This document shows positions 4,459 through 23,146 of a stretch of DNA of 64,000 nt, in pieces. Under the pieces are notes generated by a model that ran no database searches, was not told where the DNA came from, and saw only the letters and a program-made list of their open reading frames with translations. Location: positions 1 to 64,000 of the IMG/VR virus record IMGVR_UViG_3300042317_001568, one strand, 5' to 3'. Source of the DNA: a virus. Position 1 is the stretch's first letter. Every line of letters starts with the position of its first letter. The translations under genes were made by a program, and so were the position numbers.

Positions 4459-4638
4459 ATGTCCCCGCGGAGAATCATTGGTGAATGCGCGTTAGTGGTC
4501 GGCGTGCTCGGCGGAACGGTTGTCGGCTTTTTAGCCGGCAGTCATTTCGTCGAACCGCAGATACAACTCGTGTTCGCTTTTATCGGCATGGCTCTTGGTG
4601 GAGCTTTTGTCGATATATGCTTAAGAGGAGGACAGTGA
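4459..4638 (+). CDS. Small two-helix membrane protein
   Basis: 59 residues from ATG 4459, preceded by GGGAGGAAA. Two hydrophobic helices (about 8-27 and 33-52) with Gly-rich faces (GVLGGTVVGFLAG) make up most of the protein. Its stop overlaps the start of the next gene (TGATG), suggesting translational coupling. Promoter-like copy A lies just upstream. Function not recognised. Confidence 0.65.
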   Translation: MSPRRIIGECALVVGVLGGTVVGFLAGSHFVEPQIQLVFAFIGMALGGAFVDICLRGGQ

Positions 4639-5270
4639 TGTTTGCAAAGCTGTTGTTGATTGTCGTGTGCCTGACTGCCGTAGCTCACGGACAGAACCAG
4701 CCCACGCAGAAGGATATCGACCAGATGCGTGATTCGCTGGTCGCAAACTTCGACGCCCAGTCTCGCGAGGACGTCGATGCGATGATTGCGACGATCAGTC
4801 CGAAGGGTCAGCAGATGGCTGGCCCCACCGAGATGGCCGAGCTTCGGGAAGAATCCTTGAAACTCTTCGAGGAAACAAACCTGAAGCTACGGTTGGTCAG
4901 CCTGCACGTGTACGACTACTCGCCACCCAGCGTCAGCGGCTGCGCGTACGCCGACGTCGTGCAGCTCACGCTGCCGTCGGAGCATTCGTACGCGGACTTG
5001 GAGGAGTACCCGGCCGACATGAGCTCGCTCTGGCGGCACCACTCGGGGGCCTTGCCCACATCGCAGCTGGTGAAGTATGTTCTTCGGTTCGACTACGACC
5101 CGAAGGACCGCACGTGGAAACCGACGCGGATCGTGGAGCCGCCGAAGCCCGTGAGCAACTGGCCTGAGAACACTCAGGAAGTGATGCACGGCAAAGTGGC
5201 GGACCCGACAAGTCGGACCGGGGTGTGTTCAAACGGCAGATGTTCGAACAGGCTTACCAACAACCGGTAA
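4638..5270 (+). CDS. Secreted NTF2-like protein
   Basis: 210 residues. The first 18 form a classic signal peptide ending AVAHG before QNQPTQ. The following region (QMRDSLVANFDAQSREDVDA..., then a beta-rich part VSLHVYDYSPPSV...ADVVQLTL) reads like the alpha + beta cone of NTF2/SnoaL-like domains, which bind small molecules or serve as scaffolds. Third codon positions are strongly G/C, unlike the neighbouring genes, suggesting recent acquisition. It is probably exported to the host periplasm or surface. Ligand or activity cannot be inferred. Confidence 0.55.
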   Translation: MFAKLLLIVVCLTAVAHGQNQPTQKDIDQMRDSLVANFDAQSREDVDAMIATISPKGQQMAGPTEMAELREESLKLFEETNLKLRLVSLHVYDYSPPSVSGCAYADVVQLTLPSEHSYADLEEYPADMSSLWRHHSGALPTSQLVKYVLRFDYDPKDRTWKPTRIVEPPKPVSNWPENTQEVMHGKVADPTSRTGVCSNGRCSNRLTNNR

Positions 5271-5314
5271 GCGGTCGACTGGGCGACCTAAAATAGGACT
5301 TAAGCCTAGTGCGT

Positions 5315-5336
5315 GGGGAGCGCTAATCCGCTCCCC
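5315..5336 (+). terminator. GC-rich hairpin after NTF2-like gene
   Basis: GGGGAGC and GCTCCCC form a perfect 7-bp stem with an 8-base loop 45 bases after the preceding stop. There is no T-run, so it may be an RNA 3'-end stabiliser rather than an intrinsic terminator. The rest of 5271-5530 shows no gene; it leads into the tRNA-Lys. Confidence 0.4.
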
Positions 5337-5530
5337 GATGTCTGCGTTCATAGTCGTTCATGATTGGCTGTGGCGTGGGTTATTGACACTCCTCGGCCTG
5401 CGTATGCCAACAGCCCTGCAAGGCTGCAAAAATACGTAGGCAGGCACGCCTGTGGTTGCAGCCGCAGTTTGGAAAGTCGCGCGCGTTATCGGGTTTCTCG
5501 GTGACGAAGTGTGGCGGCAGTGTCAGTCTC

Positions 5531-11837: not shown

Positions 11838-11853
11838 AAAGCAGTGTTTTGAC

Positions 11854-11931
11854 GTAACTCCTTATCGCGCAGTAGTTTACGACCGCTGGCATATGCTATT
11901 TGTCGTAAATGTCTGTGCGGTAAGGAGTTAC
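11854..11931 (+). repeat. Long near-perfect inverted repeat / hairpin
   Basis: Three consecutive paired blocks, GTAACTCCTTA/TAAGGAGTTAC, TCGCGCAG/CTGTGCGG (wobbles) and TTTACGAC/GTCGTAAA, with one small internal loop, make about 27 bp closing an 18-base loop. There is no T-run and no gene inside. It could be an RNA processing site, a DNA cruciform or a protein-binding site. Confidence 0.7.
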
Positions 11932-11971
11932 GCAAAATACACCAAACGCAACGATCCGTTTTTTTAGCTAA

Positions 11972-12013
11972 TAGCGCCCCTGTATACTCATTTGTTTACA
12001 CAGGAGGGCGCTA
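11972..12013 (+). promoter_or_regulatory. Hairpin covering the ribosome site of a 23-codon ORF
   Basis: TAGCGCCC (11972-11979) pairs with GGGCGCTA (12006-12013) and CTGT with ACAG, enclosing the AGGAGGG ribosome site and the A of the ATG. Translation of the following mini-ORF would be blocked when folded. The 5' arm is part of the repeated TTTAGCTA-ATAGCGC element. Confidence 0.45.
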
Positions 12014-12084
12014 TGGATACCTGCAGCTTCGATTTTGAGGACATTATGTCCTTCCTGTTCGACGACGACTGGGACGCCGAATAG
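12013..12084 (+). CDS. Candidate 23-residue acidic peptide
   Basis: ATG 12013 preceded by AGGAGGGCGCT. The product is acidic (nine Asp/Glu in 23 residues) with aromatic residues, ending FDDDWDAE. Very short, so coding status is uncertain, but the ribosome site is excellent and is placed in a possible regulatory hairpin. It ends just before promoter-like copy B. Confidence 0.4.
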   Translation: MDTCSFDFEDIMSFLFDDDWDAE

Positions 12085-12110
12085 CCCTAAATACCCCCTA
12101 TGGCGAATAG

Positions 12111-12144
12111 CTAAATATAGGCCAAAAACAGGGTATATGAATTG
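12111..12144 (+). promoter_or_regulatory. Promoter-like element, copy B
   Basis: CTAAATA at 12111, CAAAAA at 12123, GGTATATGAATTG with TATAT at 12134: same 12/23 spacing as the other copies. It sits immediately before the 1-kb structured non-coding stretch. Confidence 0.65.
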
Positions 12145-13151
12145 ACGGGGATAATAGGTATTGCCTATAGACCCGTCCCGGAACCCGCTACGGTGAAAGT
12201 GGGACCAGACCTGCAGCAGCAGTGTTCTGGGCTTAATACTGCGGGGAAGCGCCGCAGGGCTGATGATCGGCCGCCACAATCCGTCGGGTCCGTTGCAGTG
12301 GACCAGTGAGACGTTAAAACAGAATCTCGACTGCGCGGCCTAATACGCCGTAACGTTCTGGCTGTAAAGTCAGATCGTTATCCGCACCGCTACAGGTGTG
12401 GGTGAGCCGGCCCTTCTCGATGGGGTCTGGTTTCCCGATGGGGGTGTGCACTCATTAGAGCACCTCCATTAAGACGTTGTGGCGCCTCTTCTGCGCGACC
12501 AACGTACGGCCTGTGTCAATATAAGTCGTACCCAAGGTACGCTTTTGAAACAGGGTTTGCTGCTAATTCCTCCAGCGCAGCACACGGTTTTCGCAAGCCG
12601 TCCAATCGGGAGTCGATTCAGTGTAGGGAGACAAAGTAGCCATGGCGAAATGTTTCCAGCAGTGTTGACAGGGCGTAACGCACCCTGTGTGTGACACACT
12701 GCGATCTACAGCTGCAATCGGCTGCGAACCCATCTTCGGTTCGTGAGTGGAGGACAATACACGCTAGCCGCAAGGCTGGCACGTCGTTTCTTCCGACGTA
12801 GCGGAAGAGGTTTGACCAACAAGCCTAACTGTTGGTGATCGTATGTGGGTTAAACCACAAACGTTCGCGAGCCGCTCAGTCGCCAAAGTTCCAAGAGCCC
12901 TTAGTTGCGTTACGGAAGTGAAACGCAACGGCTAGCCGTGTAGCAGGAACGTGTATTAAGACACGTACACGGCACAATAAACGCCTACCACCGGGCGATA
13001 TGGCGTGGCTGCCGCACGAGGGAAGTAACGTGCGTGGGGACCGGCACCTAGCCGGGGCTGTGGACGCACAGTTGACGCTTAAATGGAAGACGCGGCGAGG
13101 TGCACCTCAAAGCGAGCCGGGTTCGATTCCCGGCATAGTGTCTAGTTTTTT
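12145..13151 (+). ncRNA. Candidate giant structured non-coding RNA (about 1 kb)
   Basis: About 1,000 bases without a convincing gene, starting at promoter-like copy B and ending with a hairpin plus TTTTTT at 13146-13151. Hairpins are dense. Examples: GACGGG/CCCGTC (12144-12177), CTGCGG/CCGCAG (12239), CCGCACC/GGTGTGG (12382), GTGC/GCAC (12447), ACAGGG/CCCTGT (12667), GAACC/GGTTC (12725), CTAGCC-GCAA-GGCTGG (12763), ACGTCG/CGACGT (12781), CCAACA/TGTTGG (12817), GTTGCGTT/AACGCAAC (12904), CCGTGT/ACACGG enclosing ACGTGT/ACACGT (12936-12972), CCGGC/GCCGG (13041), CTGTG/CACAG (13059). The 3' end is a tRNA-like T-arm, GCCGGG-TTCGATT-CCCGGC (13115-13133). Size, phage setting, nearby tRNAs and the T-arm recall GOLLD-type giant RNAs, but no sequence match was tested. 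Any short ORFs inside lack ribosome sites. Confidence 0.65.
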
Positions 13152-13228
13152 GGCAAGGTACCGTTCCCTGCCACCCCATCTGAGGGCTTTTGAACGGACG
13201 CGTGTCTCGAAAGAGAAAGGGGAGTGCT

Positions 13229-14101
13229 ATGAGCACTTTCAAGTCAGTTGTCGCCAGCCCGTTTTACGGGTTCGGCTGGGTCGCTGGTCAGATCAAGAAC
13301 GGCTACGACAAGGCGGTGAACGCCACGTCGTCGGCCGCGTCGCAGGTGGCCACCGCCGCCACCTCGACGGCCAAGGCCGCCAAGGCCAAGGCCACCAAGG
13401 CGGGCAAGGCCGTGAAGGGCGGCGCCAAGGCGGCCAAGGCTGCTACGGTTAAGGCCGGCAGCTCGGCCAAGGCGAAGGTTGCGTCCTTCGCCCGCCACGC
13501 CGCCGCCGATGCCCGCGGGCTCGGCGCCATGCTGTTCGGCATGGTCAAAGTGGCCGCCGTGGGCGTTGTCACGATTGCCACCGCGGTTCTCCTCGGTGTC
13601 GTCAAGACGGTGGGCTTGGTGGCCCACGCCGTGGGGCTGATTGCCCTCGGCGTGGCGGCGTTGGTGGTGACTAGCTTCTCGCTGGTTGCCATTGCAGCGT
13701 TCTGCGTGGCGTTTCTCGCAACGCTCGCCGTGGTGTTCATCGTCCGCGGAATCTTCACAGCGCTCGCGGCTGTGGGGCGGTTTCTGACCGGCGAAGGCGG
13801 CATGGTTATCGCGACCGTGTTGCACGACCTGTCGGTGTTCTGCTGCTTCCTTGCCGCCGTTTACGCCTGCGTTGCGGTGGCGGCGGTGGCCATTCCGGCG
13901 CTCGGGATTGCCGCCGCCAATGCTGCCGCCGTGGCGGTGATCGCCACGTGGTGTGCCCTGCTGGGCGCGGGAACGGGGATTGCCGGCCTTCTGCTGGAGG
14001 CCGCCAACCGCCTCCCGGAGGTTGTGGTGTATGCGCCGCCCAGTCGGCGTATCCTGCCTAACGACGTCTATCCGGGCGTCATCGGCACCGCGACTGCCTG
14101 A
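13229..14101 (+). CDS. Histone-H1-like tail fused to multi-helix membrane domain
   Basis: 290 residues from ATG 13229 (AAAGGGGAG upstream). Residues about 30-95 are Ala/Lys/Thr-rich (KAAKAKATKAGKAVKGGAK...), like the C-terminal tail of histone H1. They are followed by five or so very hydrophobic Ala/Val-rich helices between about 105 and 270 and a short polar tail. Membrane localisation with a cytosolic, possibly DNA-binding, basic region is the simplest reading. Codons are strongly G/C-ending. It lies directly downstream of the giant RNA candidate. Function unknown. Confidence 0.65.
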   Translation: MSTFKSVVASPFYGFGWVAGQIKNGYDKAVNATSSAASQVATAATSTAKAAKAKATKAGKAVKGGAKAAKAATVKAGSSAKAKVASFARHAAADARGLGAMLFGMVKVAAVGVVTIATAVLLGVVKTVGLVAHAVGLIALGVAALVVTSFSLVAIAAFCVAFLATLAVVFIVRGIFTALAAVGRFLTGEGGMVIATVLHDLSVFCCFLAAVYACVAVAAVAIPALGIAAANAAAVAVIATWCALLGAGTGIAGLLLEAANRLPEVVVYAPPSRRILPNDVYPGVIGTATA

Positions 14102-14179
14102 CTAAGGTCGGGTAGTAAACATTGACGCGCACACACGCGTGGAGGGCAGCAAGCCACCTCCTTACCAAAAAAGAATTGC

Positions 14180-14215
14180 ACGGGCCGGTCACGCCGACGC
14201 AGGCCCGTTTCTTTT
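14180..14215 (+). terminator. Intrinsic terminator
   Basis: ACGGGCC (14180) pairs with GGCCCGT (14202) around a 15-base loop, followed by TTCTTTT. It separates the membrane protein from the HD hydrolase gene. Confidence 0.75.
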
Positions 14216-14259
14216 ATCTATTCCCAATCCCACATCCTTAAGAAAGGAACGCGTTAATT

Positions 14260-14886
14260 ATGGGAATTCTGGACACCAAGGCTGCCGTGGCGTGCACGGT
14301 TGCTCACGAGTCGATTCAGCAGATGCGGAAGTATGGCGACCGGCGCTATTACACGCACCCGCTGACGGTGGCCGCGCTCGTGCACACGCTGCCGGGCACG
14401 GACGAGGCGATGTTCGCTGCGGCGTGCCTCCATGACGTCATCGAAGACGTCTACCCGAAGAACCCCGCCTACGGCCCCGCGTGGGTTGCGAACAACTTCG
14501 GCGAGGAAGTGCTGCTGCTCGTTCATGAGCTCACCAACGAGTTCACGAAAGAGCGGTATCCCGACCTCAACCGCAACGAGCGGAAGCGGCGGGAGAGTCT
14601 GCGGCTCGCCGACATCTCCGACGCCGCGAAGGTTGTGAAGCAGGCAGACCTGTATCACAACAGCACGGAGATCAGCCCTGACACCCGCTTCTGGGGTCAA
14701 TGGTTGAAGGAGAAGAACGAGCTCGACGAGCTCATCGGCGCGTGGGAGGACCGCGAGTGCGGCTTCCTCACGGGTGGCGACGTCTGGAGTCTTGTCGGCT
14801 CTGGCGAGTTCAAGATGCTCGTCGCTACGGCGCACGAGATCGACGAGTTCTACAAGGTCGCCGACTGGGGCCTTGTGACTGCGTAA
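14260..14886 (+). CDS. HD-domain hydrolase, RSH/Mesh1-like (possible (p)ppGpp hydrolase)
   Basis: 208 residues, AAGAAAGGA before ATG. HD-superfamily residues are in RSH order: YYTHPLTVAALVHTL (His about 33), CLHDVIEDV (about 57-65, the HD and ED pair) and KQADLYHN (about 127-134, equivalent to KLADRLHN of SpoT/Mesh1). The size matches single-domain small alarmone hydrolases, with no synthetase domain. By family knowledge it would degrade (p)ppGpp or a similar nucleotide and damp the stringent response during infection. Substrate is not proven. G/C-ending codons suggest recent acquisition. Confidence 0.75.
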   Translation: MGILDTKAAVACTVAHESIQQMRKYGDRRYYTHPLTVAALVHTLPGTDEAMFAAACLHDVIEDVYPKNPAYGPAWVANNFGEEVLLLVHELTNEFTKERYPDLNRNERKRRESLRLADISDAAKVVKQADLYHNSTEISPDTRFWGQWLKEKNELDELIGAWEDRECGFLTGGDVWSLVGSGEFKMLVATAHEIDEFYKVADWGLVTA

Positions 14887-14894
14887 ACAATTGG

Positions 14895-14930
14895 CGCGGC
14901 AGGGAGTCCTGCCCTCCCGCACCTTTTGTT
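14895..14930 (+). terminator. Intrinsic terminator
   Basis: GGCAGG-GAGT-CCTGCC hairpin after the HD gene, followed by CACCTTTTGTTT; the T-run merges into a TTTAGCTATTAGCGC element. Confidence 0.65.
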
Positions 14931-14943
14931 TAGCTATTAGCGC
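14929..14943 (+). repeat. Repeated 15-bp element TTTAGCTATYAGCGC
   Basis: Near-identical copies lie at 11963-11977, 14929-14943, 15570-15584, 17330-17344, 17921-17935 and, inside a coding region, 19586-19600. The intergenic copies start in a T-run, in most cases that of a terminator, and the copies at 14929, 15570 and 17330 are followed 18-19 bases from their start by the CTAAAT promoter-like element. Probably an upstream control site. Confidence 0.6.
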
Positions 14944-14947
14944 GTAG

Positions 14948-16303: not shown

Positions 16304-16306
16304 ACG

Positions 16307-16340
16307 CTAAATAGTCTCCAAAAGCCTGACATATACAGAA
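16307..16340 (+). promoter_or_regulatory. Promoter-like element, copy E1
   Basis: CTAAATA at 16307, CAAAA at 16319, GACATAT with CATAT at 16330. Same 12/23 spacing; the 3' part (ACAGAA) is the most divergent copy. In tandem with E2. Confidence 0.55.
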
Positions 16341-16359
16341 AATGCGGGTTTCTGCTGAG

Positions 16360-16393
16360 CTAAATATTCAGCAAAAACACGGCATATCTAGTG
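16360..16393 (+). promoter_or_regulatory. Promoter-like element, copy E2
   Basis: AGCTAAATA with C at 16360, CAAAAA at 16372, CGGCATATCTAGTG with CATAT at 16383. It directly precedes the second long structured non-coding stretch. Confidence 0.7.
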
Positions 16394-17046
16394 CTCAGCG
16401 CGCTAGCTGTCGACGGCTACGCGCTAATTGACGTGAATTCGTTCTGAGCCTGCGCGGTGTACCATTGCTTGAACGGATGCTTCCGTGGTGATTCGAGCAG
16501 TGAGTAAAAGCTGCGCAGGCTTTTCCGTAAATACGTCCGCGGCAGGCAGTTAAGCCGCGTAGAAAACTGCCAATACACTCGACCTTCGCCTTGCGAGAAT
16601 GCGGCGAACAGAATCTGCCGTCACGGGCACCATCTTTGGTGGCTCGAAAGTTGGGCGATCATCGGCCCAAAGGCGGGATAGGACGCACACTATCCGCGCT
16701 ACGCGATTTGTAAATCCCAAAGTGGAAGGAGGAAATGTCGAATTCCCAAAGCAAGGAATTCCGTAGCAGGCTGTGTAAGACTGCGCAAAAAGCATTTCCA
16801 AGCGCCCCGGACCGCTAGCTCAAACACAACGACGCTAGAAGAGGGTTCGGTACCGGATGGGCCGGTCGTGATTCATAGCATAAACCTGCGTTTGTTACTT
16901 TGGTCGGCCAACCAAATAATAAACAAAGGCGCTACTGCAGTCGGTCGTACAACTGACTGTAGAGTAATCGCGTGACTGATGAGGATAGCAAACACGTAGT
17001 TGGGGAACTCGTAGCAGGTTAGCGTCTGCTGCGATGCTTCTTCCCA
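16394..17046 (+). ncRNA. Candidate second large structured non-coding RNA (about 650 nt)
   Basis: No convincing gene in about 650 bases downstream of promoter-like copies E1/E2. Strong paired elements: AGCGCG-TAGC/GCTA-CGCGCT (16397-16425), GCCTGCGC/GCGCAGGC (16448-16519) enclosing ACGGA-TGCT-TCCGT, an H-type pseudoknot (16539-16571), TTCGCC/GGCGAA (16584), TTGGGC/GCCCAA (16651), GGATAG/CTATCC (16676), GGAAATG/CATTTCC (16731-16799) enclosing GAATTCC/GGAATTC, TTTGGT/ACCAAA within GTTTGTTA/TAATAAAC (16889-16923), CTAC/GTAG enclosing GCAGTC/GACTG (16932-16963), AGCAG/CTGCT (17012). The 3' end is not marked by an obvious terminator, so the RNA may continue into the gene at 17104. Relation to the 1-kb RNA is unknown. 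Confidence 0.6.
16539..16571 (+). other. H-type RNA pseudoknot
   Basis: GCGGC (16539-16543) pairs with GCCGC (16554-16558), while the loop segment GGCAGTT (16545-16551) pairs with AACTGCC (16565-16571). Two perfect interleaved stems, a textbook pseudoknot within the second large RNA. Confidence 0.7.
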
Positions 17047-17103
17047 AAGGTGGTGCCCGTGACGGCAGTTGTTAGTTTAACCCCTAAGAAAGGATGGACT
17101 CTC

Positions 17104-17319
17104 ATGTTGTTTATTGGAATGCTCGGTGCGGTGTTCGTGCTCGGTGCGGTTGCTGGGACCATCAGCGACATGGTCAATACCGAAAAGCCTAAAATGGCCA
17201 CCACGTTTACTCGTGTTTCGACCAAGGTCACGAGCGGTATCGTCGACGTGGACCCGAATGGCAACATCATCAGGATCACCGACGCCTCCGGGCGCGTGGT
17301 CTATGAGGAGGGGGCTTAA
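17104..17319 (+). CDS. Small membrane-anchored protein
   Basis: 71 residues from ATG 17104 (AGAAAGGA upstream). One N-terminal helix (MLFIGMLGAVFVLGAVAGTI) then a soluble beta-rich tail (SGIVDVDPNGNIIRITDASGRVVYEEG). Only gene after the second large RNA. The stop codon lies inside a short GGGC/GCCC hairpin. Function unknown. Confidence 0.55.
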   Translation: MLFIGMLGAVFVLGAVAGTISDMVNTEKPKMATTFTRVSTKVTSGIVDVDPNGNIIRITDASGRVVYEEGA

Positions 17320-21119: not shown

Positions 21120-21203
21120 ATGATGTACCGAGACATACCCCGGCTAATTCGGCTCGTGATTCTTTTTGGGATACTGGTCTGGCTTGTGGGGGCGACTCTA
21201 TGA
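21120..21203 (+). CDS. 27-residue membrane peptide
   Basis: ATGATG start, one hydrophobic helix (LIRLVILFGILVWLVGATL), stop overlapping the start of the helicase gene (ATGA). The ribosome site is weak. It may serve mainly to couple translation into the helicase. Confidence 0.4.
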   Translation: MMYRDIPRLIRLVILFGILVWLVGATL

Positions 21204-23146
21204 CCACAGCAGCAGGTATGTTCTATGGCGGCAGCGCGCTAAACAAAGCAGCCGAACTCGTACCAGACGTCCAGTTACAAGACCACCAGCAGCGCATTGC
21301 AGACCGTATCTCGGGCGATGACCCCAGACTGCTTGTGTATCACGGACTGGGCTCTGGCAAGTCCCTGTCAGCTCTGGCAGCAGCTGAGAAAGCCCGCACA
21401 GAACAGGGCGGCGAATATGGCGTCGTCGTACCAGCCAGCCTCAAGGGCAACTTCGAGAAGGAGATCGCCAAGTTCACGCGCGACTCGAACCCGGAAGTCA
21501 TGAGCTACACGGGCTTGGGCATGGGCAAGGATTTTACGAATAATCCCGACACGCTGGTGATGGACGAAGCAGCTCGGCTAAGAAATCCCACAGCCGCGAG
21601 CACATCTGCCGCTATGCGCGCAGCCCAGAAAGCCAAAAGACTGGTCCTGCTCACAGGCACGCCGATCACCAATGAGCCGAGTGATATCGCCAGCTTGCTG
21701 TCTATGCTGCACAACAAACAAATCACGCCGCAGCAATTTGATCAGCAGTTTGTAAGCGAGAAGAAAGTTCGGCCGGGTATCTTAGCGTGGTTGCGTGGCA
21801 TAAAGCCCGGTATGAAGCCAGTTATCAAGAACGAAAGCAAGCTGCGCGCATTGCTAGAGGGCAAAGTCGATTACTTACCCAGCAAAACACCTGAAGGCGT
21901 AAACGTTAACGAAGAAGTCGTGCGTGTGCCGCTGTCAGCCGAACAGCAGCGTATCCAGAAGGCTATTCGGACCAAGATTCCGCCGGGCTTTCTCTGGAAA
22001 CTGGACCAAGAGTTCCCGCTGTCGCGCGATGAGCTGGCGAAACTAAACAGCTTTATGACTGGTCTGCGCCAAGTGAGTCTAAGTACACAGCCGTTTCGAG
22101 CTGACAAAGACATGTACCGCGCGTATTCTCAGTCCAGCAAATTACAGAAAGCCATGGCAGACTTGCAGGAGACGCTCAAGAGTGATCCGCGCAAGAAGGC
22201 TATTATCTACTCTAACTTCATTGACGCTGGATTAAATCCATATGCTGCGGCGTTAGAGAAGAACAAGATTCCCCACGCGTTCTTCCACGGCGGCATGCCC
22301 GTCAAAGCGCGTCAGCAGGCACTCAAGCAGTACAACGAAGGCAAGCTCAAGGCGCTCTTGCTCGGCCCCGCAGCAGCCGAAGGTATCTCGACTAAGGGCA
22401 CCAGTCTCATTCAGCTTCTGGACCCGCACTGGAACGAAGCACGCAGTCAGCAAGCTCGTGGTCGTGGTCTGCGCTTTGACTCCCACGAGGGCCTGCCCGA
22501 AGAGCTGCGCAACGTAGCTGTCCGGCGATATCTTAGCTCGTCAGAAAATCCGGGCATTGTTGGCAAATACTTGCTGGGCAGAAAGCGTGAACGCACCGGT
22601 GACGAAGTGCTGGAAAGACTCACGGCAGAGAAAGAACAGTTTAATGACGTGTTCCGCAACTTACTCCGCGAAGTCGGCAGCGAGAAGCAAAGTGACGAAG
22701 CGCCGCCAATAGCGAAAAAAAAGAAGCCGGTACCCGCGTTCACACCTGACTTTACGCCAGAACAGCTTGAAGAACTGGGCGTCTATAACTCGCTGTACCG
22801 CGGCATTGGCCCCCGTCTGGCTAGCTTGGGCGAATGGAAACCAGAGTGGGTGAATCCTGTCGACCCCAAAGGCTGGGCGCAGTGGTACAAGCGTTATTCT
22901 GGTGGCCGGAGATTAGGCGACGAAGATGAGCGTCAAATCAAGCGCTGGGCCAATTTTAAGTCCCGTCACGGCGGCCCATTTGTTAAAAAACCCACGCCTC
23001 GCCGCGGTTGGGCGCTGCAGAACTGGGGGATTGATCCTAGCCTGCTCGTTCCCGAAGAAGAATCTGATAAAATCAAAACCATGCTGCAGAACTATGCTGT
23101 TAAACAAACGGCAAAGCATGTAGCGAATACAACGCCGGAACAGTAA
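21200..23146 (+). CDS. SNF2-like superfamily 2 helicase
   Basis: 648 residues. Motif I VYHGLGSGKSLSALAAA (about 47-63), motif II MDEAARLRNP (DEAA in place of DEAH/DEGH, about 121-130), motif III LTGTPITNEP (about 151-160), motif V/VI region LLLGPAAAEGISTKGTSLIQLL...QQARGRGLRFDSH (about 390-430). ATP-dependent DNA translocase; in phages it may act in replication, recombination or transcription. The last 180 residues are an extra C-terminal domain ending with WAxxYxRY-like segments that I do not recognise. It is followed 1 base later by a Gly-rich gene. Confidence 0.85.
   Translation: MTTAAGMFYGGSALNKAAELVPDVQLQDHQQRIADRISGDDPRLLVYHGLGSGKSLSALAAAEKARTEQGGEYGVVVPASLKGNFEKEIAKFTRDSNPEVMSYTGLGMGKDFTNNPDTLVMDEAARLRNPTAASTSAAMRAAQKAKRLVLLTGTPITNEPSDIASLLSMLHNKQITPQQFDQQFVSEKKVRPGILAWLRGIKPGMKPVIKNESKLRALLEGKVDYLPSKTPEGVNVNEEVVRVPLSAEQQRIQKAIRTKIPPGFLWKLDQEFPLSRDELAKLNSFMTGLRQVSLSTQPFRADKDMYRAYSQSSKLQKAMADLQETLKSDPRKKAIIYSNFIDAGLNPYAAALEKNKIPHAFFHGGMPVKARQQALKQYNEGKLKALLLGPAAAEGISTKGTSLIQLLDPHWNEARSQQARGRGLRFDSHEGLPEELRNVAVRRYLSSSENPGIVGKYLLGRKRERTGDEVLERLTAEKEQFNDVFRNLLREVGSEKQSDEAPPIAKKKKPVPAFTPDFTPEQLEELGVYNSLYRGIGPRLASLGEWKPEWVNPVDPKGWAQWYKRYSGGRRLGDEDERQIKRWANFKSRHGGPFVKKPTPRRGWALQNWGIDPSLLVPEEESDKIKTMLQNYAVKQTAKHVANTTPEQ

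Follow-up and report, generated by a model that had tools for sequence, protein, structure and literature searches.

The stretch of DNA analysed here, hereafter the window, covers the first 64 kb of a 205,010-bp IMG/VR virus record, and all positions follow its numbering. The record derives from an uncultivated jumbo phage of bacteria that carries multisubunit RNA polymerase genes, and its nearest cultured relatives by RNA polymerase protein, Salmonella phage Arash and Vibrio phages D69 and D181, show only ~32% identity to it. Six tRNAs and a tmRNA form an island at 5.5-10.3 kb (ARAGORN), and 3' of this island lies a hairpin-dense + strand region of about 1 kb (12145-13143), here called RNA1, which lacks coding signal, folds strongly and carries a T-arm. 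Two + strand genes follow, one for an ORFan hydrophobic (membrane) protein (13229-14101) and one for an HD-domain phosphohydrolase (14260-14886). Several further features of this phage and its relatives came to light: a Pistol ribozyme (5273-5343, 58 bits) sits immediately past the stop of an ORF at 4485-5270, ahead of the tRNA island; the two domains of a helicase ORF (21200-23146) have exchanged places when compared with the homologue L029:13485-15431; and in the relatives L011 and L013 (5001-10403) the RNA polymerase gene is interrupted near codon 410-427 by ~1 kb, perhaps an intron or an inserted homing gene.

Promoter and probable extent of the RNA1 unit

RNA1 is preceded by a promoter of phage type, not sigma-70 type, with the form GCTAAATA-N16-TATAT (12110-12138, + strand), and the motif is conserved at the syntenic place in the related phage G006. 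The window holds five exact GCTAAATA-N16-YATAT sites, this one included, and 7 sites when up to two mismatches are allowed, against 1.3 expected; all 59 promoter sites found over the window and related loci (a count that includes duplicates from the same phages) face the transcribed direction. By analogy with the other promoters of these phages, RNA1 would start at about 12145, and its transcript would open with a hairpin (12144-12177, + strand), as other units in these phages likewise do.

Where does this unit end? In these phages, unit ends commonly consist of a T-run and then TAGCTATCAGC, a motif present at 9 sites, 7 on the + strand, when up to two mismatches are tolerated (1.1 sites expected). 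Around RNA1 the + strand carries it at 11963 and 14929 only; the second occurrence, TTTAGCTATTAGC (14929-14941, + strand), follows a T-run, with the next promoter at 14947. A near-perfect 78-nt hairpin (11854-11931) stands ~35 nt ahead of the T-run and unit end at 11963. A search of 12145-14900 found neither a unit-end motif nor a second promoter, so both 13229-14101 and 14260-14886 are probably carried on the RNA1 transcript. At the TTTTTT run just past RNA1 (13146-13151, + strand), the terminator scan makes no call of an intrinsic terminator.

The same layout of promoter, structured noncoding stretch, hydrophobic ORF and unit end recurs at a second locus, RNA2 (16306-17095, + strand). Here promoters at 16306 and 16359 lead into ~700 nt of structured noncoding sequence (16388-17095, z -7.9), followed by a 71-aa hydrophobic ORF (17104-17319) and a unit end. 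RNA2 lacks the RNA module described below, and no counterpart of it was matched in the relatives.

A folded noncoding kilobase with a tRNA-like 3' end

In a codon-usage model trained on the same phage, the + strand ORFs of at least 40 aa within RNA1 score -5.5, -18.3 and -0.3, against +82 for the gene that follows; the minus strand holds one 45-aa ORF scoring +10.7, near the noise level. RNA1 has a predicted minimum free energy of -430 kcal/mol, corresponding to z -6.9 on the + strand and z -3.4 on the - strand (100 dinucleotide shuffles), with z -8.4 and -4.9 in smaller sets of 20 and 16 shuffles. All three thirds fold beyond chance (z -4.5, -4.6 and -3.0), and in 29 helices of at least 5 bp the pairing probability averages 0.8 or more. 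Folding energy does not settle the matter by itself, because the GC-rich gene just downstream is equally extreme at z -7.1.

Near its 3' end RNA1 contains a perfect match to a tRNA T-arm, GCCGGG-UUCGAUU-CCCGGC (13116-13134, + strand), with the 5-bp stem and TTCRANN loop that define this element. Perfect T-arms number nine on the + strand, eight within tRNA or tmRNA genes and the ninth in RNA1, as against 0.25 per 64 kb in shuffles. The surrounding ~70 nt are predicted to fold into a closed tRNA-like shape (13074-13142, + strand), in which GACGCU (13074-13079) pairs with AGUGUC (13137-13142) as the closing stem; ARAGORN and Rfam found no complete cloverleaf there. A long noncoding RNA that ends in a tRNA-like fold with a true T-arm recalls mascRNA and similar 3' domains, but the mascRNA model of Rfam gives RNA1 19.4 bits, below the gathering threshold of 42.5. 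The tRNA-like 3' end is probably a site of processing or end protection.

These results bear out most of the initial annotation, which had described about 1 kb free of protein and dense in hairpins, with its own promoter-like element at the 5' end (now a strict phage promoter motif), a tRNA-like T-arm as the last hairpin and a T-run at the 3' end. Its coordinates, 12145-13151, are correct, the last position being the end of the T-run. Membership of GOLLD or ROOL, which it named as giant phage RNAs known near tRNAs, is not supported: an Rfam scan of 11850-13260 with 4227 models returned no relevant match at E<=1, GOLLD, ROOL, riboswitches and ribozymes included, which agrees with its remark that the RNA could not be matched to any described class. 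A resemblance to cobalamin riboswitches was dropped for want of an Rfam match in RNA1, L046, L054 or L068, and hammerhead-like CUGAUGA strings in RNA1 and RNA2 were likewise without an Rfam match.

Copies of RNA1 as a whole are near-identical ones only. Nucleotide searches of cultured phages and plasmids gave nothing at E<=0.01, and short chance matches and tRNA-Asp T-arms at E<=10; a degenerate pattern around 12516-12547 retrieved identical copies only from viral contigs; and the syntenic loci of the relatives G001 and G006 hold no homologue of the whole RNA. Related jumbo phages were gathered through their RNA polymerase and helicase proteins, and blastn against 57 such records (two of them the same phage) returned only the promoter, T-arms and short chance matches. 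By sequence comparison, then, the full RNA1 is an orphan, without a counterpart in more than 50 related jumbo-phage records. The covariation check proposed in the initial annotation was strongly positive for a module of ~56 nt; for the remaining ~940 nt the searches gave no diverged homologue, and the fold there is a predicted one.

A covarying module in jumbo phages and Patescibacteria

The best-supported new fact of our analysis is this module (12228-12283, + strand), a strongly covarying small RNA family that is absent from Rfam 15 and present in jumbo phages and Patescibacteria. Its consensus comprises UAAUAC (12234-12239 in RNA1), a hairpin, P2, with a GGAAGYN loop (12239-12244/12252-12257, loop GGAAGCG) and a short hairpin, P3, with pseudoknot potential (GGC 12258-12260/GCC 12270-12272). 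A further hairpin, at 12205-12230 in RNA1, usually lies ahead of UAAUAC in members, and the hairpin and flanks of the RNA1 module recur in the related phages G006 (L030) and L054. A likeness of UAAUAC to the 530 loop of 16S rRNA was discarded, since the pairing differs and no rRNA match was found.

The module in RNA1 was recognised by pattern and pairing before any model was built. Pattern scans, two over viral contigs and one over bacterial genomes, brought in L149, a virus contig, and L188, a Saccharibacteria genome, and the module stem pairs in all five members although pairing was not part of the patterns; the remaining matches, in which the stem did not pair, were discounted as chance. 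With model R1 and afterwards R2, the module was found in 11 of 295 Patescibacteria genomes sampled from the class and 7 of 380 from the phylum, two samples that overlap, and convincing matches among 39 jumbo-phage records came only from G000, G006 and the L054 phage. Within the window, the RNA1 module, itself a member of the training set, matches at 58.5 bits (E 7e-16) with its stems paired, and all other R2 matches are weak (<=15 bits, chance level). A search of 150 genomes from the Serratia phylum, run without a positive control, found no module, and Rfam at E<=10 returned no such family for the members L188 and L211.

In a set of 26 distinct sequences, both partners vary in every one of the six P2 pairs and in one P3 pair, 98.7% of cells pair as against 77% in shuffles, and the covariation score is 0.578 versus 0.164 in shuffles (0/500). 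This alignment was fitted to the model, and a MAFFT alignment of nine sequences agrees with it. Pairing between the P3 loop and the 3' tail averages -5.5 kcal/mol for cognate and -3.4 kcal/mol for permuted combinations (0/5000), which lends support to a pseudoknot in the family as a whole but, with members partly related, gives no exact significance; in RNA1 itself the pseudoknot pairing is weak, with G-U pairs and a competing local hairpin.

In Patescibacteria the module generally lies past a small, mostly unrecognised ORF and often ahead of a terminator, and contig L232 carries four consecutive copies in an array, each after an ORF. The region L232:4861-7552, where small ORFs succeed one another and each has the module and a terminator-like hairpin behind it, resembles a gene-cassette array; inspected by eye for integron attC sites, the Patescibacteria arrays showed no clear core sites. 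The module stands between ORFs in phages L030 and L054 and just before a Shine-Dalgarno sequence and start codon in L149, and in RNA1 it begins ~85 nt past the presumed start with no ORF ahead. An untranslated mRNA position is common to all these sites. This speaks for a function in mRNA stability, processing or regulation, and we infer that the module is a binding or stabilising element in mRNA. With its untranslated position beside ORFs and its covarying stems it is akin to structured untranslated elements of mRNAs, whether riboswitch-like or stabilising, but it belongs to no Rfam family and its adjacent genes have no common function. Its role is open to direct test by way of the covarying stem and the cassette arrays.

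Operon leader or free-standing RNA

How might these parts fit together? We favour, with middling confidence, a reading of RNA1 as the structured leader of an operon, modular in build and possibly processed at its tRNA-like 3' end. Transcription would most likely be started at ~12145 by the RNA polymerase of the phage itself, the transcript would continue through both downstream genes to the unit end at ~14930, and the tRNA-like 3' end may free RNA1 from the mRNA. We prefer this reading because a promoter lies at 12110 and none between RNA1 and the gene at 13229, because the nearby unit-end motifs are confined to 11963 and 14929 and no terminator is called at 13146, because RNA2 has the same layout, because the module is untranslated beside ORFs everywhere else and covaries, and because the T-arm exceeds chance. 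A kilobase-long leader is unusual, and we count this size against an operon leader, along with the T-arm and T-run, which could well be a true 3' end, and with the fold, which for most of RNA1 is a prediction, no diverged homologue having been found, and whose energy is as extreme in the neighbouring gene.

The same size, promoter, 3' T-arm and T-run, together with the strand-specific folding excess, are what one would expect if RNA1 were a giant free-standing RNA that forms a new phage class, works like GOLLD or ROOL, runs from its own promoter to the tRNA-like domain and T-run, and is abundant during infection and perhaps multimeric. A homo-oligomeric RNA cage is one hallmark of GOLLD. ROOL is a large structured phage RNA often located near tRNA islands, and GOLLD is ~1 kb long, phage-encoded, highly structured, situated near tRNAs and associated with a tRNA element (PMC12286853). 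RNA1 also adjoins a tRNA island, as do these RNAs, and it shares with GOLLD its length of ~1 kb, its phage origin, its structure, a phage location near tRNAs (for RNA1 a jumbo-phage record with six tRNAs and a tmRNA upstream), and a tRNA element, and with ROOL the character of a large structured phage RNA near such an island (PMC12286853). However, it matches neither model, carries a T-arm in place of a full tRNA and is probably no separate unit: 13146 has no typical terminator, and the gene after RNA1 has no promoter of its own. Known giant RNAs form families, whereas RNA1 is an orphan. We therefore regard a free-standing RNA as a serious but somewhat doubtful alternative, although a functional analogy with GOLLD and ROOL is possible despite the rejected membership. 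Only tentatively do we propose that RNA1 is the first of a new giant phage RNA class, with a previously undescribed 5' pseudoknotted module common to jumbo phages and Patescibacteria cassettes and a 3' end matured as a tRNA mimic.

The module might instead be a metabolite-sensing or ribozyme-type element that switches downstream genes, with the rest of RNA1 as scaffold. Its compactness, the invariant nucleotides of its loop, its covarying stem and its potential for a pseudoknot would suit such a role, as would its place directly ahead of the Shine-Dalgarno sequence in L149, but the Patescibacteria copies follow ORFs without a common function and often precede a terminator, which is not the position of a riboswitch, and no riboswitch or ribozyme in Rfam matches; we consider a switch improbable. 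We give hardly any credence to RNA1 being mostly decayed or drifting DNA in a hypervariable zone, with nothing but the module and T-arm surviving in it as real elements. From tmRNA to helicase the sequence does differ strongly among relatives, diverged homologues are absent and some coding DNA here folds equally well, but the strand-specific folding excess extends across all three thirds, promoter and T-arm are intact and the module covaries. As an operon leader or otherwise, RNA1 joins the small number of known large phage RNAs as an orphan, structured and a kilobase in size, that ends in a tRNA-like tail. In relatives, structured noncoding sequence also lies behind phage promoters at L068:2889-3195 (z -6.9) and L046:3804-4265 (z -3.2), the latter with an internal repeat.
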